From Gammaproteobacteria bacterium (lineage in GTDB: Bacteria; Pseudomonadota; Gammaproteobacteria; Burkholderiales; Rhodocyclaceae), in assembly GCA_029289235.1 (NCBI GenBank), contig JARFTZ010000057.1, positions 1 to 64,000 of the forward strand: a DNA stretch of 64,000 bases, given 5' to 3'. Every line of letters begins with the position of its first letter. Position 1 is the first letter of the stretch. The notes beneath the pieces are model-generated. The model was not told the origin of the DNA. It did not search any database and was given only the letters and a program-made list of their open reading frames with translations. Positions 1 through 10,585 of the stretch are shown here, piece after piece. Made by a program: the position numbers and the translations under genes.

Positions 1-35
1 GAATGCGTTGCCTTTAACCACGAACGGAGCCAACC

Positions 36-291
36 ATGCAAAAGATGATGATGAACGAAACCGAACTGGCCACGCGCTGGAATATCAGCCCTAAGACGCT
101 CCAGCGTCGGCGCAGCGAGGGGCGCGGGCCGCGCTTCATGAAAATGTCCAAGCGCGTCGTGTACCCGATCGACGAAATCCTCGATTAGGAGTTGGTTGCA
201 GAGCACCAAGGACCTGGGCATCGACGTGATGACGGCCCCGGGCGACCAGTACAGGACGTTGCAGCAGGCCCTCGCATCGCTGCCGGTTTGA
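36..291 (+). pseudogene. AlpA/excisionase-like helix-turn-helix protein, frameshifted
   Basis: Reading from the ATG at 36 gives a 50-residue ORF that stops at TAG 186-188. It has a helix-turn-helix of the MerR/AlpA kind (NETELATRWNISPKTLQRRR) followed by the usual beta-wing (GPRFMKMSKRVVYPIDEIL). Immediately after the stop, the +1 frame (from about 187) continues with coding-like sequence, STKDLGIDVMTAPGDQYRTL, ending in TGA at 289-291. A single small indel near 186-190 would join the two into a protein of about 84 residues, a common size for these DNA-binding proteins of integrative elements. A weak ribosome-binding site (ACGGAG) precedes the ATG. The alternative is a genuinely short protein ending at 188. 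The frameshift reading is inference from frame continuity. Confidence 0.6.
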
Positions 292-310
292 CTGACGCTT
301 CTGGCTCCGG

Positions 311-1429
311 CTATTGCTCCGCCAATTCGTAGCCGGTGCTTCGTCCGCCGCCGGGGGACTTTTTCAGCATACCCAAGCCCAGCAACTGCGTGATGTCACG
401 CAGCGCGGTGTCGGGGGAGCATTTGGCGATGGCGGCCCACTTGCTGCTGGTGAGCTTACCCTCGAAACCATCGAGCAGGCGGTTGAGCAACTTGACCTGC
501 CGCTCGTTCAGAGCTGAACCTGCCGAGCGCTGCCAGAAGCGCGCTTTAACCAGCACAGAGTCCAGCGTGGCCTGCGCGCTCGTAACAGCGCGCCCGAGCG
601 TGCCGAGGAACCACAACAGCCAGTCTGTGACGTCGAGTGCTCCTTTCTGCGTGCGTTCCAGCACATCGTAATAGTCCCTGCGCTCCCGCTGGATCTGCGC
701 CGACAGGCTGTAGAAGCGCTGCGGACTGCCATCGGCACGAGCCAGAAACAGATCACCCACTGCGCGGGCGATGCGCCCGTTACCGTCGTCGAAGGGGTGC
801 AGCGTCACGAACCACAGGTGCGCCAGCCCGGCCTTGACGAGCGCAGGCTCGCCGGTTTCCGCATTCGCCCATGCCAGAAAGCGTGCCGTCTCGGCGGCCA
901 ACACATCCGCTGGCGGTGCCTGGAAATGAATCCTGCGCCGACCCATCGGCCCGGAAACGACCTGCATGGGGCCATCGGCATCGCCACGCCACTGGCCTAC
1001 GGCGATCCGACTCATGCCCGAGTATCCTGTCGGGAACAGCGCCGCGTGCCAGCCAAACAAACGCTCGGCGGTCAGAGGTTCGACGCTGCGCGAAGTGGCG
1101 TCGAGCACCATATCAACGACACCGTCCACACGCCGATCCACTGGGGCGACCCCGCCGATGTCCACGCCCAGCCTTCGGGCGATGGATGAACGCACGGATT
1201 CCACGTTCAGCACTTCGCCTTCGATTTCGCTGGTCTTGACCACGTCCTCGGTCAAAGCCGCGAGGCTGGCCTGATCGCGCAGCGCCATTCCTACGTCCGC
1301 CAGGCGACCGAGTAGCAAGCCCTGAGCACGGCTTACATCGGCGAGCGGTCCCGCAAGAATGGACAGGTCGTAGCGCCAATCGGGCCAGTCGTCGGCCTGC
1401 CAAATGTAGAGTTTTTCTCCGCTACCCAT
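311..1429 (-). CDS. Fic family protein with DUF4172-like N-terminus
   Basis: Fic-domain enzyme, expected to transfer AMP or another nucleotide from NTP to target proteins. The core motif HPFDDGNGRIAR (consensus HPFxxGNGRxxR) lies near residue 210, with the catalytic histidine present. An N-terminal TSEIEG matches the (S/T)xxxE(G/N) inhibitory helix, so this is a class II, self-inhibited Fic protein. The extreme N-terminus (YIWQADDWPDWRYD) resembles DUF4172, and the C-terminus (SSKWAAIAKCSPDTALRDI, then a glycine-rich wing) looks like a winged helix, suggesting DNA binding or autoregulation. I chose the ATG at 1429; the ORF track begins at an upstream GTG (1444). It sits alone next to a decayed HTH gene, in accessory sequence. 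Toxin or regulator role is not determinable from sequence. Confidence 0.88.
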   Translation of the reverse strand: MGSGEKLYIWQADDWPDWRYDLSILAGPLADVSRAQGLLLGRLADVGMALRDQASLAALTEDVVKTSEIEGEVLNVESVRSSIARRLGVDIGGVAPVDRRVDGVVDMVLDATSRSVEPLTAERLFGWHAALFPTGYSGMSRIAVGQWRGDADGPMQVVSGPMGRRRIHFQAPPADVLAAETARFLAWANAETGEPALVKAGLAHLWFVTLHPFDDGNGRIARAVGDLFLARADGSPQRFYSLSAQIQRERRDYYDVLERTQKGALDVTDWLLWFLGTLGRAVTSAQATLDSVLVKARFWQRSAGSALNERQVKLLNRLLDGFEGKLTSSKWAAIAKCSPDTALRDITQLLGLGMLKKSPGGGRSTGYELAEQ

Positions 1430-1505
1430 GCGGAGATTAAACACCCAATTCGCCGCAACGGCAAGTCATTCTCCGCATCTATTGCGGCAAATGGGGCAAG
1501 CAAGC

Positions 1506-1530
1506 TCCGCACGATAAGGATTCGTGCGGA
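1506..1530. repeat. Perfect 9-bp inverted repeat upstream of the Fic gene
   Basis: TCCGCACGA and TCGTGCGGA flank a 7-bp spacer, about 80 bp upstream of the Fic start on its coding strand. The half-site CTCCGC recurs at 1532-1537 and TCTCCGC at 1471-1477. With a winged-helix-like domain in the Fic protein, an operator is possible. It could also be a transcript hairpin; there is no T tract to make it a convincing terminator. Confidence 0.45.
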
Positions 1531-1738
1531 CTCTCCGCCACATCACCATATTCCATTTGTTCGGCAAATTTACATTTATGGAGAAAATACGGAACACACT
1601 CTGATCATGCCCGCGAACACCCACACCCAGCGCATCCTTGATCTGGCCAGCCAGAGAAGGGAACCCCATCCCCACATCAATAAAACAGGTCTATATTGGA
1701 ATTACTCGGTACGTTCCGGTAACACTCGGGAGGACATC

Positions 1739-1867
1739 ATGGGAAAAACACATGAGTCTAGTAAAGAGGCCAAGAAACAGGCCTTGAAGAACCCTAAAGA
1801 GAAAAGAGCGGCAAAACGCGCCAAAAAACACGGAGCAGGAAACGCACCTCTTATTGGACGCCAGTGA
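1739..1867 (+). CDS. Small lysine-rich protein (42 aa)
   Basis: The ORF track starts at 1607, but a strong ribosome-binding site (GGGAGG) lies just before the ATG at 1739, giving a 42-residue protein that begins MGKTHESSKEAKK. The sequence is extremely basic (many Lys and Arg), with no cysteine or membrane segment, and is expected to be disordered or nucleic-acid associated. Short proteins of this MGK-x-HES style occur as uncharacterised ORFs in proteobacteria (recollection, not a search). No operon partner is visible: the neighbouring Fic gene runs the other way. Function unknown. Confidence 0.6.
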   Translation: MGKTHESSKEAKKQALKNPKEKRAAKRAKKHGAGNAPLIGRQ

Positions 1868-2060
1868 GAGTAGCGGGCCGGTCAGATGGTCGCTAATCAG
1901 GGGCCATGTATCACAAGAGCCGCTGGTCACGAGGGCGTGATTTTGCAGTGCGGTTGATTCAGAGTAGCGCCCACCAAACGACTAGTGGAGACTATTTTGG
2001 CAACGGAGACAGTAAAGCGGGGAAGCCGCAATCCTCACGCTCTGGATGGCTCGTTGCGCT

Positions 2061-2240
2061 TTATTTTTGGAGGCATTGGCTTTTGGCCTCAAGCCAATAA
2101 ACGACATCCCCTACAACAGCGATGCTCCCCGACACCACAAATGTCGCTGCGGAAACCACGCCCGCCAGCACCAGCAGTTCCACGCACCCTTCATTGCGAC
2201 ATCCCGCAAAAGCCTCCACTTGGTTCGTCTGAAGCGTCAT
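2061..2240 (-). CDS. Small hypothetical membrane protein
   Basis: A 59-residue ORF from the ATG at 2240 (the track's longer version starts at 2273). The first third is polar with two cysteines; the remainder is a hydrophobic stretch (LLVLAGVVSAATFVVSGSIA) followed by VVYWLEAKSQC, compatible with one membrane segment and a short tail. It overlaps in another frame the 3' end of the lipoprotein-like ORF at 2191-2367, so the two may be translationally linked. There is no clear ribosome-binding site. Function unknown; kept because the composition is protein-like rather than random. Confidence 0.4.
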   Translation of the reverse strand: MTLQTNQVEAFAGCRNEGCVELLVLAGVVSAATFVVSGSIAVVGDVVYWLEAKSQCLQK

Positions 2241-2367
2241 GTGTCGCTTGATAATGCCGCACGCAGCGGTCATATTCTGACGTGGTCATGGGTAGGTAGA
2301 TACAGCTACACAACCCCACGGAGGCGGAAACCAGTACGAGTGAGAAAACCTTAGACCGGGAAGTCAT
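2191..2367 (-). CDS. Possible small lipoprotein (58 aa)
   Basis: Below the length cut of the ORF track. From the ATG at 2367 the translation begins MTSRSKVFSLVLVSASVGLC, which has the basic-hydrophobic pattern of a signal sequence. It then gives CSCIYLP, so the cysteines could serve as an approximate lipobox. The rest is short and polar and ends at TGA 2191-2193. Its 3' end overlaps the small membrane ORF at 2061-2240. Evidence is compositional only; a chance ORF remains possible. Confidence 0.35.
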   Translation of the reverse strand: MTSRSKVFSLVLVSASVGLCSCIYLPMTTSEYDRCVRHYQATHDASDEPSGGFCGMSQ

Positions 2368-2585
2368 GGCATTCGGGCCGTATTCTCAATCAACAAGAAG
2401 GAGAAGAGCAGAGAAGCCCAAAGCCAATCTCGATGGCCCGAGGGAGGTTGAACCTCTACAGAAAAGCGCCCAACGACGATCGCGCCTTCGTTCTCAGTGT
2501 AGACACGCCGTCAGAAGACCTCAATTCACGCTTGCCACACGACTCCTTGGCAATTCCGGGAGGAACGCACAAAAGGACAAGCGCC

Positions 2586-2858
2586 CTAACCCCTCCCGCG
2601 CGACACCCCGGCGACCTTGATCATGTAGACCGAAAACGCCCACAGGATGGCCCCGCCGAGTACCGGCAGTGGCTTGCCCTCGGAGGACAACAGCGCAATC
2701 GACCCCGAGCAGGCACAAAGCGCCGCCAACGCCCAGAGAATCCACTTGGTGACGCCCGCAAAGGCAGCCCTGCCGAATCGCCAGAGGAAGGCAACGAAGG
2801 CAATGGCCAGCAGCACCAGCATCGAGTATTTGGAAGATCCCACGCTGCCCCATCCCAT
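2586..2858 (-). CDS. Hypothetical multi-pass inner-membrane protein
   Basis: About 90 residues from the ATG at 2858; an upstream in-frame GTG (2867) is the alternative start. Three hydrophobic segments are visible: MLVLLAIAFVAFLW, ILWALAALCACSGSIALL and VLGGAILWAFSVYMI. The protein ends in a basic tail (GVSRGRG). It follows the tRNA(fMet) gene and its terminator on the same strand, so it probably needs its own promoter. No family recognised. Confidence 0.55.
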   Translation of the reverse strand: MGWGSVGSSKYSMLVLLAIAFVAFLWRFGRAAFAGVTKWILWALAALCACSGSIALLSSEGKPLPVLGGAILWAFSVYMIKVAGVSRGRG

Positions 2859-2875
2859 AGTGAACACCAGACAGC

Positions 2876-2900
2876 AAAAAGCCCACTCCGAAGAATGGGC
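2876..2900 (-). terminator. Rho-independent terminator after tRNA(fMet)
   Basis: On the minus strand the transcript forms an 8-bp stem, GCCCATTC / GAGTGGGC (one G-U pair), closed by a TTCG tetraloop and followed by TTTTT. It lies about 15 bp past the CCA end of the tRNA. Confidence 0.85.
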
Positions 2901-2915
2901 CGACTATTTGCTGTT

Positions 2916-2991
2916 TGGTTGCGGGGACAGGACTTGAACCTGTGACCTTCGGGTTATGAGCCCGACGAGCTGCCAACTGCTCCACCCCGCG
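2916..2991 (-). tRNA. tRNA-fMet (CAT), initiator
   Basis: The reverse complement begins CGCGGGGTGGAGCAG and ends CCCCGCAACCA, with the CCA encoded. Anticodon loop CTCATAA gives CAT. The first base C opposite A72 (mismatch) and the run of G-C pairs at the base of the anticodon stem (GGG / CCC) are the hallmarks of bacterial initiator tRNA. Total 76 nt including CCA. Terminators lie on both sides. Confidence 0.93.
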
Positions 2992-3018
2992 CCCGATAAA
3001 AACGGAAAGCTTCAAAGC

Positions 3019-3044
3019 AAAACGCCAACCCAAGAGGATTGGCG
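3019..3044 (-). terminator. Rho-independent terminator upstream of tRNA(fMet)
   Basis: Minus-strand stem CGCCAATCC / GGGTTGGCG (9 bp with one G-U), loop TCTT, then TTTT. It follows the tRNA/tmRNA-like 3' end at 3062, as expected for a transcript ending there. Confidence 0.75.
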
Positions 3045-3061
3045 TCATTGCTTGATATTTT

Positions 3062-3157
3062 TGGTGGCGGAAACGGGAACCGAACCCGCGTCCGCTTGCT
3101 GATCCAGATAGTAACGCCTCGGCCTTGAGGGCGTCGATTCGATGATTTGGCCGGAGG
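3062..3157 (-). other. tRNA/tmRNA-like 3' end (possible ssrA remnant or attachment site)
   Basis: The minus strand reads GCGGACGCGGGTTCGG, then TTCCCGTTTCCGCCACCA: a T-arm (GCGGG, TTCGGTT loop, CCCGT) plus an acceptor 3' strand and encoded CCA. GGACGCGGGTTC is typical of tmRNA 3' ends. No matching D-arm/acceptor 5' half or proteolysis-tag reading frame was found upstream. Position 70 reads G where tmRNA-Ala needs U, so a functional tmRNA end is doubtful. Two hairpins (TTGGCC/GGCCAA and ACGCC/GGCGT) lie just upstream. Options: an integration scar, a degraded ssrA, or the acceptor part of a two-piece tmRNA. The 5' limit is arbitrary. Confidence 0.45.
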
Positions 3158-3278
3158 CGGCCAACGCGCGGGCACGCGTATCCCTGCTCAAAGCTCCACA
3201 TCCGCCCACCCTGGGCCTACTGGCTCACCTGATGAGCCTCCCTCCTTGGAAAATTCTTCGGAAATCAGCCATCTGTCA

Positions 3279-3307
3279 TTGCTGGTTTGAAAATTTTGCA
3301 CTATCCT
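3279..3307 (+). promoter_or_regulatory. Candidate sigma-70 promoter for the excisionase-type gene
   Basis: TTGCTG and TATCCT are separated by 17 bp, ending about 30 bp before the ATG at 3338. The surrounding sequence is AT-rich relative to its neighbourhood. Confidence 0.45.
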
Positions 3308-3337
3308 GTCGTGGTTTTCCCTAGATTGGCCATCACC

Positions 3338-3568
3338 ATGTCAACGAGTACCAGCGAAGGCGAGATCCTCACTATCAAGCAGGTCGCCGACTACCTGAAG
3401 GTCACCGAGCGGACGATCTACCGGCTGGCAGCGGCCAAGAAGATCCCGGCCTTCAAGGTCGGGGGGACGTGGCGGTTTTCGCGTGCGGACATCGACAGCT
3501 GGATCAAGCAGCAGTCATCGGTGGATCTAGGGGATGACAGCCATGACTCAGCGAAAGTTGGGCGGTGA
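3338..3568 (+). CDS. Excisionase-family (helix-turn-helix) DNA-binding protein
   Basis: 76 residues from the ATG at 3338 (the track's start at 3287 is upstream and less likely). It contains the full MerR-like/excisionase fold signature: ILTIKQVADYLKVTERTIYR followed by KIPAFKVGGTWRFSRADIDSW. Such proteins bind DNA, either as recombination directionality factors or, as often with this exact type, as small regulators at the head of an accessory operon. The stop is 2 bp before the ATG of the next gene fragment (3571), so they formed an operon. Its sequence is intact although the downstream gene is broken. Confidence 0.8.
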   Translation: MSTSTSEGEILTIKQVADYLKVTERTIYRLAAAKKIPAFKVGGTWRFSRADIDSWIKQQSSVDLGDDSHDSAKVGR

Positions 3569-3570
3569 CC

Positions 3571-3705
3571 ATGAAGCTGATCCACAACACCGGCGCAGAT
3601 CGAGTCATCGATCTGATGCGCCCGCACCTCAAACACGGCTACCTGCCAATGGGTCATCGTGTCGTGCAATGTCGATGGAACTTGCCAAGGCATATCCCCA
3701 GGTAA
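3571..3705 (+). pseudogene. 5' fragment of the gene following the excisionase-type gene
   Basis: Starts MKLIHNTGADRVIDLMRPHL with a plausible ribosome-binding region (GGGCGG) and then loses sense near 3640-3650. Beyond that the DNA codes on the opposite strand for an unrelated protein. The N-terminal sequence resembles starts I associate with large PLD-like/helicase proteins encoded directly after excisionase-type genes; that is recollection, so the family call is tentative. About 25 native codons survive and the rest of the ORF to TAA 3705 is read-through into foreign sequence. Confidence 0.5.
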
Positions 3706-4527
3706 CGAGCCCGAATAGGTACATGCCCGGAATAACTCCTCTGAAAGATCGTGCCCCTCCGGTAGGACGCTGACTAGTTTTTGGATCAGTCCGAGAGATT
3801 TGCGGCGTTCCCCACCTTCTTCACCGAAGCGTTTGGCTGTGTCGAAAAAAATGCTCCGCAAGGTCTCGCACTCGGCCTGGCTCGCTGCAAGATTACAAGC
3901 GCAAAACGGGCTGAGCGCATCCAAGTCTTCCAACGTCACAGTATCGGACACCACGCTCGCCCAGAAGTGATCGCCCGGGACGGCAGTGTCGACGGCCTCC
4001 GCCAATGGTGCGCCATGCTCTTTGGTGTAGCGAAACCAGGGACGGGTCGATGAATCCATCAGACCCAATTCCGCCAGTGTTCCGGCGTAGTACTGGCCGA
4101 GTCCGCCCAATTGGTTCTTGAAGTATCGGTGGGTAGAGTCTTGTGCAGTGTAGTGAGAAAGCAGGAGGGCTTGGCCGTTTTCGAGGCGATCAAGTGCGCT
4201 TAGTAGCTGGATGCGCCCGACCATGGCGGCACCGTGACGTTCATTGTCGTTGTCTGTTCGACGTGCGTGCCGTTCTGCAATGAGCGTGAGCAGGCAATCG
4301 GCGCGGCGGAAGTACTCAACGAATAGCGCAGCATCTTCTTTCGAGTAACGTCGGTCGTAGGACCAGACAATCCACGGATAGAGTGAGTAGTAACGAGCAC
4401 GATCGGTAACGTTGGTGATGCCTGGAAGCAGTTGCCCGTAGATAAGCAGACATGGGGCCTGTGTGCCAAGATGGTCAAGGCCCCCTATGGCTGTCGGGGG
4501 CGTTAGCCAAGAAGTCTCGATTCTCAT
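3646..4527 (-). pseudogene. Unknown protein, C-terminus lost at a recombination junction
   Basis: From the ATG at 4527 a coherent protein of about 290 residues runs to around 3646 (for example RARYYSLYPWIVWSYDRRY, GGLGQYYAGTLAELGL). Downstream of that, the same frame is merely antisense of the excisionase-type operon, so the 369-residue track ORF is a chimera. Visible character: soluble, rich in aromatic residues, no membrane segment, no nucleotide-binding motif. I do not recognise the family. Position beside an excisionase-type gene and tRNA genes suggests cargo of a lost mobile or defence island. Confidence 0.6.
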
Positions 4528-4860
4528 GTGATTAACCAGCCTATTTTTGTTTTCGCTAAGCTATTCGTGCGACCTCGAAATGCTAATTGAATCTCCAATG
4601 TTTTGCTTGGGAACCGAAAGACATACCCATGTCCGCGTTGTGGCTTTTTTTGCCCAAGTCGCCAATGTAAGGCAGTTTCCGTGACGAACAAGCAGGCGGA
4701 AACCCGCATTATTGCTTGAGGGGGCGCGACGGCGTCCTTCGCAGAAACAGAGAATGGGTGGGAACAGAGAGCGGAAAACCACCCGAAACGGGGTGCTCCT
4801 GGGCGGCGACGTCCGTCGCAGCGAGGCCCGAACCCGCGCCAATACTGGGAAAAACGGGCG
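4528..4860. other. Gene-poor interval
   Basis: No convincing gene. ORFs here (4561-4872 minus, 4712-4894 plus) are short, arginine-rich or overlap the tRNA terminator, and lack ribosome-binding sites. Base composition is mixed, the left half AT-richer than the core genome. Likely the eroded edge of the accessory region. Confidence 0.5.
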
Positions 4861-4892
4861 AAAAAAAACCAACCGAGAACGGTTGGTTTTTT
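4861..4892 (-). terminator. Terminator after tRNA-Met (bidirectional form)
   Basis: AACCAACCG / CGGTTGGTT stem with loop AGAA, flanked by an A run on one side and a T run on the other. It lies 7 bp beyond the CCA end of the minus-strand tRNA. Confidence 0.85.
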
Positions 4893-4898
4893 GAATAG

Positions 4899-4975
4899 TG
4901 GTGGTGATGGGCAGAATTGAACTGCCGACCTATGGGTTATGAATCCATCGCTCTAACCAACTGAGCTACATCACC
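4899..4975 (-). tRNA. tRNA-Met (CAT), elongator type
   Basis: The reverse complement starts GGTGATGTAGCTCAGTTGG and ends CATCACCACCA with encoded CCA, 77 nt. The anticodon loop TTCATAA gives CAT. The acceptor stem GGTGATG/CATCACC is fully paired, unlike the initiator at 2916-2991. Because CAT is also used by tRNA-Ile2 (after lysidine modification), identity as Met rather than Ile2 is inferred. Confidence 0.85.
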
Positions 4976-5051
4976 GTTAGGGCGCGAGATTATAAAGTTG
5001 CTTCCTACAGAAGGTCAACTTCAACAGCACCCCATTCATTAAAAGCTTGTT

Positions 5052-5057
5052 TATAAT
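5052..5057 (+). promoter_or_regulatory. Consensus -10 hexamer just before the 5064 gene
   Basis: A perfect TATAAT lies 6 bp upstream of the ATG at 5064. Transcription from it would start at or near the A of the ATG, so the message may be leaderless. There is no good -35 at the right distance and no ribosome-binding site. Confidence 0.4.
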
Positions 5058-5063
5058 GCGCCG

Positions 5064-5423
5064 ATGCCACTACCTGCATCCCTTGTTGCCTCAATCGTCA
5101 GCGCCGTCATTGAAACGGTCGTGCAATCGGCGGGTACCGTATCGACAACGCAATACGATACGTACATTGCCAGGCGCACGCTGCCTCCCGAGGTAAAACA
5201 GGGTGTCATGCAACCGCCTCCGGGCAATGGCACCGTCACCATCAGCGGCAGCACCCTCACCCTGTCGCCGGTCGCGCAGTTCCGCAACCAGCAGAACCTG
5301 ATCGTCATGCCCATGGCCATTCAGCAAGCGACCGACGTGGTGTATCTCAACGACAACTTCGGCGCCGTGCACCGCATCTGGCTGATCAGCCGGGCGGAAG
5401 CCGATTCCCTGAAGAAAAACTGA
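5064..5423 (+). CDS. Hypothetical protein upstream of miaB
   Basis: 119 residues. The N-terminus is mildly hydrophobic ([21 protein letters not shown]) without a clear signal cleavage site. The middle carries a proline-rich stretch and a beta-like segment ([18 protein letters not shown]), and the end is charged. Codon use matches the housekeeping genes that follow, and it ends 10 bp before miaB, so co-transcription is likely. No domain recognised. Confidence 0.65.
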
Positions 5424-5433
5424 CTCCGCTCCA

Positions 5434-6771
5434 ATGGTAAAAAAACTGTTCATCCGCACTTTCGGGTGCCAGATGAACGAGTACGACTCGGACAAGATGG
5501 CCGACGTGCTCGCTGCTTCTGAAGAAATCGTCAAGACCGACTCGCCCGACGACGCCGACATCATCCTTTTCAACACCTGCTCGGTGCGCGAGAAGGCACA
5601 GGAACGCGTGTTCCATGACCTCGGCCGCGTGCGGCTGCTGAAAAAGGAGAAACCGGACCTGATCATCGGCGTCGGTGGCTGTGTGGCCAGTCAGGAAGGC
5701 GACGCCATCGTCGCTCGCGCGCCATTTGTCGATATTGTCTTCGGCCCGCAGACGCTGCACCGCCTGCCGCAATTGATCGCCGAGCGGCGCCGGGCCGGCA
5801 AGGCGCAAGTCGATGTCTCGTTCCCTGAAATCGAAAAATTCGACAACCTGCCGCCGGCCAAGGTCGAGGGCGCCGCGGCGTTCGTCTCGATCATGGAGGG
5901 CTGCAGCAAGTTCTGCACCTATTGCATCGTCCCCTTCACCCGCGGTGACGAGGTGTCGCGCCCGTTCGACGACGTGCTGACCGAGGTTGCGGGGCTGGCC
6001 GCACAGGGTGTCGGCGAAGTCACGCTGCTTGGCCAGAATGTCAATGCCTACCGCGGGGCGATGGCGGGCAGTGAAGAAAAGGCGGACCTCGCGATGCTCA
6101 TCGAGTACATCGCGGAGATCCCCGGCATCGAGCGCATCCGCTACACCACGTCGCATCCGCGCGAACTGACGCAGCGGCTGATCGACACCTACGTCAAGGT
6201 GCCGAAGCTGGTTTCGCACCTGCACCTGCCGGTGCAGTCGGGCTCGGACCGCATCCTCGCGGCAATGAAACGCGGCTACACCGCGCTCGAATACAAGAGC
6301 CTGGTACGCAAGCTGCGTGCGGCCCGGCCGGACATCTCGCTCTCGTCCGACTTCATCGTCGGATTCCCCGGCGAAACTGCGGAAGATTTCGAGAAGACAA
6401 TGAAGCTGATCGACGACGTCGGTTTCGACGCCTCGTTCTCGTTCGTTTTCAGTCCGCGCCCCGGCACGCCGGCAGCGGAGATGCACGACGACACGCCGCG
6501 TGAAGTCCAGATCGAGCGCCTGACGCGCCTGCAGCGACGCATCGAGGAACTGGCGCAGGTTGTCTCGCAGTCGATGGTCGGCACCGTGCAGCGCGTCCTG
6601 GTCGAAGGCTTCTCGAAGAAGGACGAGCACGAACTGGCCGGACGCACCGACAACAACCGCGTCGTCAACTTCCAGGGCAACCCGCGTCTCGTCAACAAGT
6701 TCATCGACGTGCGCATCACCTCGGCGATGCCGCATTCGCTGCGCGGCGAAGTGGTCACCCGCGAATCATGA
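5434..6771 (+). CDS. miaB: tRNA-2-methylthio-N6-dimethylallyladenosine synthase MiaB
   Basis: Radical-SAM methylthiotransferase that converts i6A37 to ms2i6A37 in tRNAs reading UNN codons. At 445 residues it has the family length. The N-terminal UPF0004 domain carries the three auxiliary-cluster cysteines ([11 protein letters not shown] near 12, NTCSVRE near 49, GGC near 83). The radical-SAM CxxxCxxC motif is [13 protein letters not shown] near 155-165, and the C-terminal TRAM domain runs to the end ([19 protein letters not shown]). Its stop overlaps the ATG of phoH by 4 bp. The miaB-phoH-ybeY-corC-lnt order is a conserved proteobacterial cluster. Confidence 0.97.
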
Positions 6772-7790
6772 AAACCCGAACTTCATCCGGCGCATCCGCC
6801 AAGCCGAAGGCCGTCGACCTGCTGCTCTCGCCGGTCAACAACAATCAGCTCGCCAACCTCTGCGGCGTGCTCGACGAGAATCTGCGCCAGATCGAAACGG
6901 CGTTCGACGTTTCCATCGCCCGGCGCGGCGAACGCTTCACGCTGCGCGGAGAAAAGGAACAGACGGCGAAAGCGTCCGAAGCGCTGCAGTTGTTCTACGC
7001 CCGCGCAAAGAACACACTGTCCGTCGATGAAATCCAGCTCGGCCTGATCGAACTGCTCAACCGCCCGGCGCGCAAGGACGTGGTGCGCGACGACGACATG
7101 CCGACCCTGATGACGCGCAAGGCCGAACTGCACGGCCGCACGCCGCGCCAGGTCGAATATCTGCGCCAGATCCAGGAGCACGACATTACCTTCGGCACCG
7201 GCCCGGCCGGCACCGGCAAGACTTACCTCGCGGTTGCGTCGGCGGTCGACGCCTTCGAGCGCGAACTGGTGCAGCGCATCGTCCTCACACGTCCTGCCGT
7301 GGAAGCCGGCGAGCGTCTCGGTTTCCTGCCTGGCGATCTGTCGCAAAAGGTCGATCCCTACCTGCGCCCGCTCTACGACGCGCTCTACGACCTGATGGGC
7401 TTCGACAAGGTCGGCAAGCTGTTCGAGCGTGGTGCCATCGAGATCGCGCCGCTCGCCTACATGCGCGGACGCACGCTGAACCACGCCTTCATCATCCTCG
7501 ACGAAGCGCAGAACACCACGCCCGAGCAGATGAAGATGTTCCTGACGCGCATCGGCATCGGCGCCAAGGCGGTAGTTACCGGCGACGTCACGCAGATCGA
7601 CCTGCAACGCGGACAGAAGAGCGGCCTGATCGAGGCGCGCAAGATCCTGAAGGACGTGCGCGGCATCGCCTTCACCGAATTCCAGAAGGAGGACGTCGTG
7701 CGTCACCCGCTGGTGGCCCGCATCGTCTCGGCGTACGAGACCTATGCCGCCCAGGAAGAGAAAAATGGACATGCCGGCGACAACAAGTAG
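6768..7790 (+). CDS. PhoH-family ATPase (YbeZ type)
   Basis: Cytoplasmic P-loop ATPase of the PhoH/YbeZ group, associated with ribosome and RNA metabolism together with YbeY. Of 340 residues, the N-terminal ~110 form the KH-like region of this family. Walker A is [13 protein letters not shown], and a Walker B-like [18 protein letters not shown] follows near residue 245. The start ATG overlaps the miaB stop (ATGA), and the end overlaps the ybeY start by 26 bp, indicating translational coupling. Substrate not defined by sequence. Confidence 0.93.
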
Positions 7791-8244
7791 GCGGCTCAAC
7801 CTGAGCGTGCAATACGCCTGCAACACGGACGGCGTACCGTCGCGTCCACAGTTTCGCGCCTGGGCGCGGGCCGCGCTGAACGCCGACGGGATGCGCGGCG
7901 GGCAGATCACGCTCCGCCTCGTCGACGCAGAGGAAGGCCAGTCGCTCAACCGCGACTATCGCGGCAAGGACTACGCCACCAACGTGCTGTCGTTTCCGTA
8001 TGAGATCGAGCCCGTGGTCATCGGCGACCTGGCCATCTGCCACCCCGTCGTGGCCCGGGAAGCCGCAGAGCAGGGCAAGACGCTCGAAGCGCATTACGCG
8101 CATCTGGTCGTCCATGGCGTGCTGCATTTACAGGGGTACGACCACGAGACCGGCGAAGCCGACGCGGCGAGGATGGAAGACAAGGAGCGCGAGATACTGG
8201 CATCATTGGGCTTCGCCGATCCTTACAACACGGGGAAAGCGTAG
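7765..8244 (+). CDS. ybeY: Endoribonuclease YbeY
   Basis: Zinc-dependent single-strand endoribonuclease acting in 16S rRNA 3'-end maturation and ribosome quality control. The metal-binding signature [11 protein letters not shown] (consensus HGxLHLxGYDH) is complete, and the preceding [10 protein letters not shown] block is also conserved. I chose the ATG at 7765 because AGGAAGAG sits at good distance upstream; the track's start at 7744 has no such site. That gives 159 residues, a normal length. It overlaps phoH. Confidence 0.95.
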
Positions 8245-8274
8245 CCGCCCGGCCAAGCTTTCCTGACAACGACA

Positions 8275-9111
8275 ATGGACCCAGACAGACCGACTTTCTT
8301 CGAACGCCTCTCTTCCCTCCTCCTGCGCGAGCCGGAGGACCGCGAGCAACTGATCCGGTTGCTGCACTCCGCACACGAAAGAAACCTGCTCGACGCCGAC
8401 GCCTTGTCCATCACCGAAGGCGCCCTGGCCGCGTCGGAAGCCGTGGTTCGCGACGTGATGGTGCCGCGGGCCAAGATGGAAGTCGTCGATATCGAGGATC
8501 CGCTGGAAAAGGTTATCGAACAGATCAACCGCACGGCACATTCGCGCTTTCCGGTGATCGAGGAAAACCGCGACAACGTGATCGGCATCCTGCTCGCCAA
8601 GGACTTGCTGCGCATCCGCAAGGACAAGCCCTTCAACCTGCGCGACTGGCTGCGCCCCGCCGTCTTCATTCCCGAGTCGAAGCGCCTCAACGTGCTGCTG
8701 CGCGAATTCCGCGTTTCGCACAACCACATGGCCGTGGTCGTCGACGAATACGCGGGGGTGAGCGGACTCATCACCATCGAGGACGTTCTCGAACAGATCG
8801 TCGGCGAAATCGAGGACGAATACGATTTCGACGAAACCGAGGACAACATCCGCCGCGACCAGTTCGGACGCTACCGCGTCAAGGCGCAAACGGCGATCGA
8901 AGACATCAACGCCGAGTTCGGCACGAACTTCAGCGACGAGGAGTGCGACACTCTTGGCGGGCTGATCCTCAACCACTTCGGCCGCGTTCCCCGCCGCAAG
9001 GAAGAACTCGATCTCGACGACCTGCACATCCAGGTCCTGCGCGCCGACCGGCGGCGGTTGTACACCCTGCTCGTCACCCGTCGCCCGCAAATCCCGGATG
9101 CCCTGGACTGA
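8275..9111 (+). CDS. corC: CBS-domain / transporter-associated-domain protein, CorC (YbeX) type
   Basis: 278 residues. The N-terminal helical part is followed by two CBS domains (VRDVMVPRAKMEVVDIEDPL near 60 and VVVDEYAGVSGLITIEDVLEQ near 160) and a C-terminal CorC/HlyC domain (RYRVKAQTAIEDINAEFGTNF). There is no membrane segment, as expected for the soluble CorC/YbeX form rather than the membrane CNNM form. It is linked genetically to Mg2+/Co2+ efflux and ribosome health. It lies 30 bp after ybeY, and its last 14 bp overlap lnt. Confidence 0.92.
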   Translation: MDPDRPTFFERLSSLLLREPEDREQLIRLLHSAHERNLLDADALSITEGALAASEAVVRDVMVPRAKMEVVDIEDPLEKVIEQINRTAHSRFPVIEENRDNVIGILLAKDLLRIRKDKPFNLRDWLRPAVFIPESKRLNVLLREFRVSHNHMAVVVDEYAGVSGLITIEDVLEQIVGEIEDEYDFDETEDNIRRDQFGRYRVKAQTAIEDINAEFGTNFSDEECDTLGGLILNHFGRVPRRKEELDLDDLHIQVLRADRRRLYTLLVTRRPQIPDALD

Positions 9112-10585
9112 CTCCCCCCGGACAAACAGGGCAATCGCCCTGCTGCTGGGGGCGGTTAGCGTTGCCGCCTTCGCTCCGACAGGCGCTTTCCCCGTCCTCT
9201 GGCTTTCCCTCGCAGGGCTGTTCGCGCTGCTCACCCGTCTGGCCGACGCGAACGCTCCGACGCGCGACGGAGCGATCCTCGGCAGCTGTTTCGGTGCCGG
9301 CTTCTTCCTTTCCGGAGTCTCGTGGGTTTACGTCAGCCTCAGCATCTTCGGTGGGATGCCTGCCCCGGTCGCCGGGCTCGCCACGCTGCTGTTCTGCGTC
9401 GGGATGTCGCTCTACCCGGCGCTGGCGGGCGCGCTGTTCGTCCGCTTCGCCCCCGTTGGCTGGCGGCGCGCGCTGTTCTTCGCGGCCGCGTGGACGCTCA
9501 CGGAATGGCTGCGCGGCTGGTTTCTCACCGGGTTCCCCTGGCTGGCAGCGGGCTATTCACAAACGCCGCCCAGCCCGCTCGCCGGCTTCGCGCCGATCGT
9601 CGGCGTCTATGGCGTGTCGTTGCTGACGGCACTCGTCGGCGGCCTGTTTGCCCTGGCAATCCGCCCAGCCACGCGCTGGAAAAGCCTCGGCGCGATCGCC
9701 GTGTTGCTGCTCAGCGGTTTTCTGTTGCTTCAGCACACGTGGACGTCGCCGCACGGCGAACCGGTTCGCGTTGCCCTGCTGCAAGGCAACGTCGCCCAGG
9801 ACCTCAAATGGCGGCCGGAAAAATTCGAGGAATCGCTGCGCACCTACTACCAACTGATGCATGACTCCCCCGCGCAACTGACCGTACTGCCGGAAACCGC
9901 GCTGCCGGTTTTCCTTGACCAGGTTCCGCCGGATTACCTGGAGGCGCTGACCGCGCAGGCCGCCCGCCAACGCGGTGACCTGCTCTTCGGCATCGTCACC
10001 GGCGACCGCCACGAATACGCCAACAGCGCCGTCAGCCTCGGCGCCTCGGGCGAGCAGCGTTACGACAAATCCCACCTCGTTCCCTTCGGCGAATTCATTC
10101 CGCCTGGCTTCGCCTGGTTCATGGCGATGGCGAACATCCCGATGTCCGAGTTCACTCGCGGAGCGGAAGCGCAAAAGCCGATGCGCCTCGCGGGGCTGAA
10201 CGCGGCCATCAACATCTGCTACGAGGACGCCTTCGGCGAAGAGATCATCCGCGCGCTGCCGGAGGCCGACGTGTTGATCAACATCTCCAACGTCGCCTGG
10301 TTCGGTGATTCGCTGGCCCCACCGCAGCACCTGCAGATCGCCCGGATGCGCGCGCTGGAAACCGGGCGGATGATGCTGCGCGCCACAAACACCGGCATGA
10401 CCGCGATAGTCGGTGCAGACGGCCGCGTGCATCACGCCCTGCCGCCGTTCACCCGGGCCGCGCTGAGCGGCGAAGTCCGCGCCTATTCCGGCAGCACACC
10501 CTACGTCCGCTGGGGCAACGGGCCGATCGTCGTCGTGGCATTGCTGATCCTCTGTTTCATGCGGCGGCGCAACGCGCTATCCTGA
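9098..10585 (+). CDS. lnt: Apolipoprotein N-acyltransferase
   Basis: Inner-membrane enzyme transferring the third acyl chain onto the N-terminal cysteine of lipoproteins. Several N-terminal membrane segments (IALLLGAVSVAAFAPTG onward, to about residue 215) precede a nitrilase-like periplasmic domain. The catalytic triad is visible: Glu in TVLPETALPVFLD, Lys in YDKSHLVPFGEF, and Cys in INICYEDAFGEE. A last membrane helix (PIVVVALLILCFM) closes the 495 residues. It overlaps corC by 14 bp, and its downstream neighbour starts 30 bp later. Confidence 0.96.
   Translation: MPWTDSPRTNRAIALLLGAVSVAAFAPTGAFPVLWLSLAGLFALLTRLADANAPTRDGAILGSCFGAGFFLSGVSWVYVSLSIFGGMPAPVAGLATLLFCVGMSLYPALAGALFVRFAPVGWRRALFFAAAWTLTEWLRGWFLTGFPWLAAGYSQTPPSPLAGFAPIVGVYGVSLLTALVGGLFALAIRPATRWKSLGAIAVLLLSGFLLLQHTWTSPHGEPVRVALLQGNVAQDLKWRPEKFEESLRTYYQLMHDSPAQLTVLPETALPVFLDQVPPDYLEALTAQAARQRGDLLFGIVTGDRHEYANSAVSLGASGEQRYDKSHLVPFGEFIPPGFAWFMAMANIPMSEFTRGAEAQKPMRLAGLNAAINICYEDAFGEEIIRALPEADVLINISNVAWFGDSLAPPQHLQIARMRALETGRMMLRATNTGMTAIVGADGRVHHALPPFTRAALSGEVRAYSGSTPYVRWGNGPIVVVALLILCFMRRRNALS

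Follow-up and report, generated by a model that had tools for sequence, protein, structure and literature searches.

In the stretch of Rhodocyclaceae DNA analysed here (64,000 nucleotides, hereafter the window), the start of an operon, consisting of an intact HTH gene and the first codons of a probable helicase gene, abuts tail-to-tail the first 294 codons of an unrelated gene of the opposite strand, gene A. Within what is taken for an accessory region, this arrangement is probably the scar of a deletion that took away most of a helicase operon and of a convergent two-gene module, A-B, which elsewhere is most likely a nuclease-type defence module. The scar itself is ordinary, a record of loss, and neither defence system is functional in the window, where the HTH gene alone could still be expressed. 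What gives the locus its value is rather the A-B family and, with less certainty, the HTH gene as a possible start cassette of operons. The features of the region are the following.

2916–2991, minus strand: initiator-type tRNA-Met (CAT) with a 5' C1-A mismatch and GGG-CUCAUAA-CCC (ARAGORN, Rfam)
3062–3153, minus strand: att-like element, a tmRNA-type 3' end (GGACGCGGGTTCGGTTCCCGTTTCCGCCACCA) together with some 60 bp recurring elsewhere (RF00023, recurrence)
3287–3308, plus strand: conserved motif TTGAAAATTTTGCACTATCCTG upstream of the HTH gene, probable operator or promoter (alignment of 33 HTH upstream regions)
3338–3568, plus strand: intact MAD1/excisionase-like HTH_17 gene, 76 aa, probable operon regulator (profile matches)
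3571–3642, plus strand: probable first 24 codons of a PLD(HKD)+Snf2-type helicase gene, the rest lost (match to the pOLGA2 helicase)
3643–3645, no strand: deletion junction, placed within about 3 bp either side
3646–4527, minus strand: gene A, first gene of a Zac-like module, first 294 of about 550 codons; its 3' part and gene B lost (homologue alignment)
4899–4975, minus strand: elongator tRNA-Met (CAT) next to miaB, at which a variable locus is anchored (ARAGORN, Rfam)

Anatomy of the junction

The junction is placed at 3643–3646 because homology on the left stops at 3642 and homology on the right stops at 3646. A preliminary description had put it near 3640–3650, where an intact gene and the first ~25 codons of its partner were said to meet a 3'-truncated, unrelated gene of the opposite strand; this outline holds, the pieces being a 76-aa HTH gene, 24 codons and 294 residues that match the start of proteins of 549–551 aa. 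On the minus strand the frame stays open for 75 codons past the junction, producing an ORF of 369 aa whose final 75 residues are read antisense to the HTH gene (3418–3568) and the helicase start (3571–3642). Past Trp294, close A homologues read W-x-x-Y-x-x-N in the alignment and the window reads WQVAVFEV. Since another HTH gene, at locus L168, yields a similar tail in antisense (HIPPTLKPGIFLAAASR), a search with the full ORF could return misleading tail matches, a pitfall also for the refuting test proposed earlier. Separate searches with the two fragments, the course recommended earlier, led from the helicase start to the helicase locus of pOLGA2, and from A to loci among defence genes. The same junction was detected in none of the other genomes of the genus, no repeat at the junction is found by self-comparison of the window (self-blastn), and the arrangement as it would have stood before a deletion was encountered in no genome.

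The probable helicase remnant

The 24 residues encoded at 3571–3642 on the plus strand (MKLIHNTGADRVIDLMRPHLKHGY) match residues 1–24 of a 1081-aa helicase of Paraburkholderia pOLGA2 with 58% identity, and the match ends there (E 0.03 when 7.3 Gb of plasmids are searched, 1.9e-6 when the search covers 33 loci). The pOLGA2 helicase scores as PADLOC C3a139 'HKD+Snf2' (8.6e-113) and has DUF4391, type III Mod and type III Res genes on its 3' side, and in HTH relatives on other plasmids a SNF2 gene comes next, followed by DNA methyltransferase and helicase genes. With loci composed of an HTH gene, an Snf2-type helicase and type III Mod/Res (C3a139 'HKD+Snf2', DrmD-type) the window would share the helicase N-terminus and its operon position, although it retains 24 codons only. 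Because the piece is so short and its best match only 58% identical, identification of this segment as a helicase start is good but not certain, and it depends in part on the place beside the HTH gene; the nearest relatives of the window's HTH have different genes downstream, and a pattern search returned no further copies of the helicase start. Directly 5' of the Paraburkholderia HKD+Snf2 helicase gene lies an 85-aa 'hypothetical' gene (L052, 9038–9295) that is seemingly a chimera of two operon-protein starts.

The HTH gene and its upstream motif

The 76-aa protein matches HTH_17 (1.2e-19), NCBIfam MAD1 (1.3e-23) and the TIGR01764 excise profile (2.2e-17). Its original designation as excisionase-type denotes an HTH fold only, and a role as operon regulator is more likely because its relatives are the first genes of operons, probably defence operons, with a conserved upstream motif. 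No integrase that could partner an excisionase was recognised by eye among the ORFs of window positions 1–10000. Similarity to MAD1 of the MADS system (NF047737) exceeds the curated cut-off (83 vs 80 bits), yet the window holds no MADS gene besides this MAD1-like HTH, and BldC is matched weakly (1.6e-5); in contrast to both, close relatives of the window's HTH head several different operons.

Comparison by blastn with many relatives shows DNA identity to begin about 50 bp before the start codon (~3285) and to stop within the HTH gene or at its end. Alignment of 33 upstream regions identified the motif TTGAAAATTTTGCACTATCCTG as common to about ten HTH relatives. Genes on the 3' side differ from one relative to the next and include, by names given by eye and not by profile, a probable large ATPase (L129, L130), an Hsp70-like gene (L131, L138), an AlbA/Schlafen-like gene (L132) and an SNF2-type gene (L136). 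The motif and the MAD1-like HTH gene (3287–3568 in the window; also L129–L138, L144 and L051) precede many unrelated, probably defence, operons, and together may constitute a portable regulatory start cassette. The varied downstream genes, the shared motif and the seemingly chimeric 85-aa gene suggest that recombination at operon starts may be a recurrent feature. The presence of one HTH gene and upstream motif before different operons also suggests how unrelated defence systems may share one type of control.

Gene A

The 294 residues of A in the window align end to end with residues 1–294 of proteins of 549–551 aa at 63–66% identity, homologues extending about 256 residues beyond the junction position. 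Among 399 genomes of the order six hold an A match, the window's own genome included; the close matches are open frames of 549–615 aa, aligned from residue 1 or 2 to 294, and a further copy, 63% identical to the fragment, resides on Undibacterium plasmid pUYM01. A single-protein scan of genome contigs with the 294-aa fragment gave no relatives, its patterns being too specific, and an alignment of five homologues was used to find 64 A loci in GTDB genomes. Hosts include Pseudomonas, Ramlibacter, Stenotrophomonas, Vibrio, Bradyrhizobium, Desulfobacterota, Acidobacteriota and Myxococcota, among others; none was found in phages and viral contigs. Loss of the 3' part is recurrent, since A is cut after residues 102–223 in five other genomes (L105, L119, L120, L121, L125).

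The preliminary description had not recognised the family of this minus-strand protein, and the fragment matches no Pfam or NCBIfam family; it can nevertheless be placed as A of a Zac-like A-B module, the window's ORF itself giving a weak match to PADLOC ZacA (0.0033). A is predicted with high confidence to be an all-helical protein (pLDDT 91.8, pTM 0.90, mostly helical). Foldseek comparison of this fold with the PDB and with viral models returned no E below 0.13, and a phmmer search of PDB sequences nothing credible (E 0.99).

Gene B and the A-B module

Gene B is lost from the window. In relatives it lies directly downstream of A; A is present as an ORF in 59 of the 64 loci and B also in 53, in 50 of which A overlaps B, a protein of about 850 residues. 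B matches PLDc_2 (1.5e-6), and the top fold matches of its model (pLDDT 80) are to Tdp1 (Foldseek E 5e-8, prob 1.00), with a TM-score of about 0.5 on Tdp1 length, the model being less confident than that of A. Over 24 divergent sequences H86, N106, H272, K274 and N294 are invariant and K88 nearly so, so that B in relatives combines two HxK...N half-sites (H86-K88-N106 and H272-K274-N294) in one chain with a Tdp1-like fold. Tdp1 uses HKN motifs of this kind. The N-terminal half of B is thus confidently predicted from the model to be Tdp1-like and a member of the phospholipase D superfamily, despite 11–13% identity to Tdp1 and about 400 extra residues in B.

These half-sites would form a Tdp1-like phosphodiesterase active site in B, while A would act as the all-helical partner that recruits or licenses it, the pair often standing next to, or within, loci of type I restriction or of DISARM/Dpd-like type. 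An intact A-B is most likely a nuclease-type defence module with putative antiphage activity and DNA as the putative substrate of B; a search of the literature yielded no antiphage assay of the pair. The family, which neither Pfam nor NCBIfam names and which was reached by way of the scar, is spread over Pseudomonadota, Acidobacteriota, Myxococcota and others, often beside or inside restriction systems, and would, if active, represent a two-gene add-on nuclease module that can be tested in a laboratory strain. A broader proposal is put forward tentatively, as a conjecture somewhat less likely than not: A-B would be a mobile antiphage module, pairing a helical protein of no known fold with a Tdp1-like double HxK...N phosphodiesterase, that serves as an add-on effector in type I restriction, DISARM and other operons, and defence operons would be reassembled by swapping the portable HTH and operator cassette, with scars such as this one as by-products.

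Neighbourhoods of A-B

At 27 of the 64 A loci, genes of type I restriction or of DISARM/Dpd-like type are present no more than 10 kb away. The neighbouring gene clusters, named with PADLOC over the 10 kb fetched, include type I R-M genes at 16 of the 64 loci and DISARM/Dpd-like genes (DpdE/DrmD- or DrmMI-like) at 11; were each genome to have about one type I system, a rough expectation is that about 1% of loci would fall within 10 kb of it. A-B is flanked on both sides by Hsd genes in three loci (L067, L068, L096). The nearest relative (L031/L064, Dechloromonas sp.) carries, in this order, a DpdE-like helicase, a 200-aa gene, a DrmMI-like methyltransferase, a SIR2 gene, a Dsr1-like gene, A, B and an AbiGi-like gene. 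Within this DISARM/Dpd-like locus (L031, 5488–9245) the SIR2 and Dsr1 C-terminal parts are two adjacent genes, not one Dsr1.

Relation to known defence systems

A and B are distant relatives of PADLOC ZacA and ZacB (PADLOC-DB PDLC03828/PDLC03829), and for this reason the intact pair is filed, on sequence grounds, as Zac-like. Among the 44 A proteins compared, 36 match ZacA at E<=0.01, the best with 1.5e-8, while ZacB is matched by all 24 B proteins (best 1.2e-23), and here ZacA- and ZacB-type genes go together, in the order A then B. The pair is not assigned to Zac proper because the matches cover parts of the models only, the lengths differ (about 550 aa for A vs a 396-position ZacA model, about 850 vs 586 for B), and a ZacC-type helicase, which we take from the model names to be a required part of Zac, is not a regular neighbour of A-B among the recurring gene clusters. 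Where a helicase does adjoin an A-B pair, as at some loci, its best score is as DrmD/DpdE. A-B would be a module with no obligatory helicase, embedded in other loci or standing alone. PADLOC candidate PDC-M27B is matched by 23 of the 24 B proteins; PDC candidates are described as having been found by 'guilt-by-embedding', most of them unvalidated (PMC12988326), and a literature search for Zac and PDC-M27 brought up no relevant paper.

Other PLD-type defence nucleases, DrmC and DpdK among them, have neighbourhoods partly in common with B. One DrmC (DISARM) model is matched weakly by 16 of 24 B proteins (best 5.3e-8) and DpdK weakly by the L031 B protein (E 0.0023), but the DrmC and DpdK profiles in question are themselves short (153–173 positions), whereas B has 850 residues, two half-sites and its own partner A.

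Proposed origin of the scar

Before the deletion, the plus strand would have carried the HTH regulator, the PLD+Snf2 helicase and then probably methyltransferase or restriction genes, with the A-B module converging from the minus strand, A starting at 4527 and B to its left. A single deletion, running from around helicase codon 25 to around codon 295 of A, would have taken both 3' ends and everything between them, so that the HTH gene stayed whole and of A there remained 294 codons, read on into antisense DNA. For two genes that face each other and are both missing their 3' ends, one such event suffices, and it would explain the scar without an inversion. The truncations, the junction, the overlap of A and B in relatives, their neighbourhoods and the predicted fold and conserved residues of B are what the analysis shows; the single deletion, the gene content lost here, the activity of the module and the binding of A to B are inferred.

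An unlikely, though still appreciable, alternative is a history of two events, in which the HTH gene and helicase start recombined in at an operon boundary, beside an A that had already decayed. HTH genes with conserved upstream DNA do precede many unrelated operons, and the 85-aa gene that precedes the Paraburkholderia helicase itself seems to combine the starts of two operons; however, more steps are needed than for one deletion, and the helicase codons place the exchange point away from the HTH boundary itself. An artefact of assembly or binning is considerably less probable. Although the genome is a draft of 63 contigs, the window starts at a contig end and no other genome has the same junction, both halves fall within one contig of 120,828 bases, the flanks are consistent (tRNA-Met/miaB on the right, tRNA-Met and the att-like element on the left), self-comparison shows no repeat at the junction, and A has lost its 3' part in a similar way in five other genomes. 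It is scarcely credible that the 369-residue ORF, the frame of which stays open for 75 codons through the junction, is complete and genuine, encoding A in a short or fused version that ends in a C-terminus of its own, as the tail is antisense to the conserved HTH gene and, where homologues including these last 75 residues had been named as the evidence that would speak for it, occurs in 0 of 43 aligned homologues, full-length A having about 550 residues.

Flanking tRNA genes and the att-like element

Both CAT tRNA genes noted previously are real, one initiator-type and one elongator. The initiator-type gene has a second copy on contig C7 of the same genome. Of 29 genomes of the genus, 28 have a match to the DNA beside the elongator tRNA-Met and miaB, some of the weaker matches probably being to the tRNA only, and on the far side of this tRNA the content varies among the congeners inspected, one of which (L045) has an integrase-like ORF at the tRNA-Met locus. 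In another congener (L037, 6290–6338 and 12654–12730) the 3' end of tRNA-Met is repeated over 49 bp, with 96% identity, about 6.4 kb from the tRNA; these are probably the att sites of another island.

The att-like element lies 185 bp before the HTH gene, encodes CCA and is followed by a terminator-like hairpin. Its match to RF00023 is 13.9 bits over 3062–3137, below the gathering threshold of 47. Copies recur in two other genomes of the order (81–88% identical over about 92 bp) and in four mobilizable plasmids (83.5% over 91 bp), in pRSB105 near an annotated xis, and a 34-bp core is found in three viral contigs, in one of them about 200 bp from an integrase-like ORF. The segment 3062–3153 is read here as a putative att remnant. 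An intact tmRNA at 3062–3330 was considered and rejected, this being a 3'-end-like piece only; the host tmRNA, of the permuted betaproteobacterial type, is on contig C11 (RF01850, 285 bits).

The preliminary description had both truncated genes as cargo of a formerly larger island between the two tRNA genes. A cargo origin is consistent with the differing origins of the two pieces, with the homologues of both among defence genes and with the variable tRNA-Met/miaB side, which bears signs of integration in congeners. Both pieces may have come in on one island: the att-like element lies beside the HTH gene, but no second att copy or tRNA 3'-end duplication was detected within the window (self-blastn), and neither an integrase near the junction nor a relative with this arrangement intact was found. 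At the contig end, window positions 311–1444 on the minus strand encode an intact DUF4172-Fic protein (PADLOC SoFic, 2.3e-37), possibly another accessory or defence gene.
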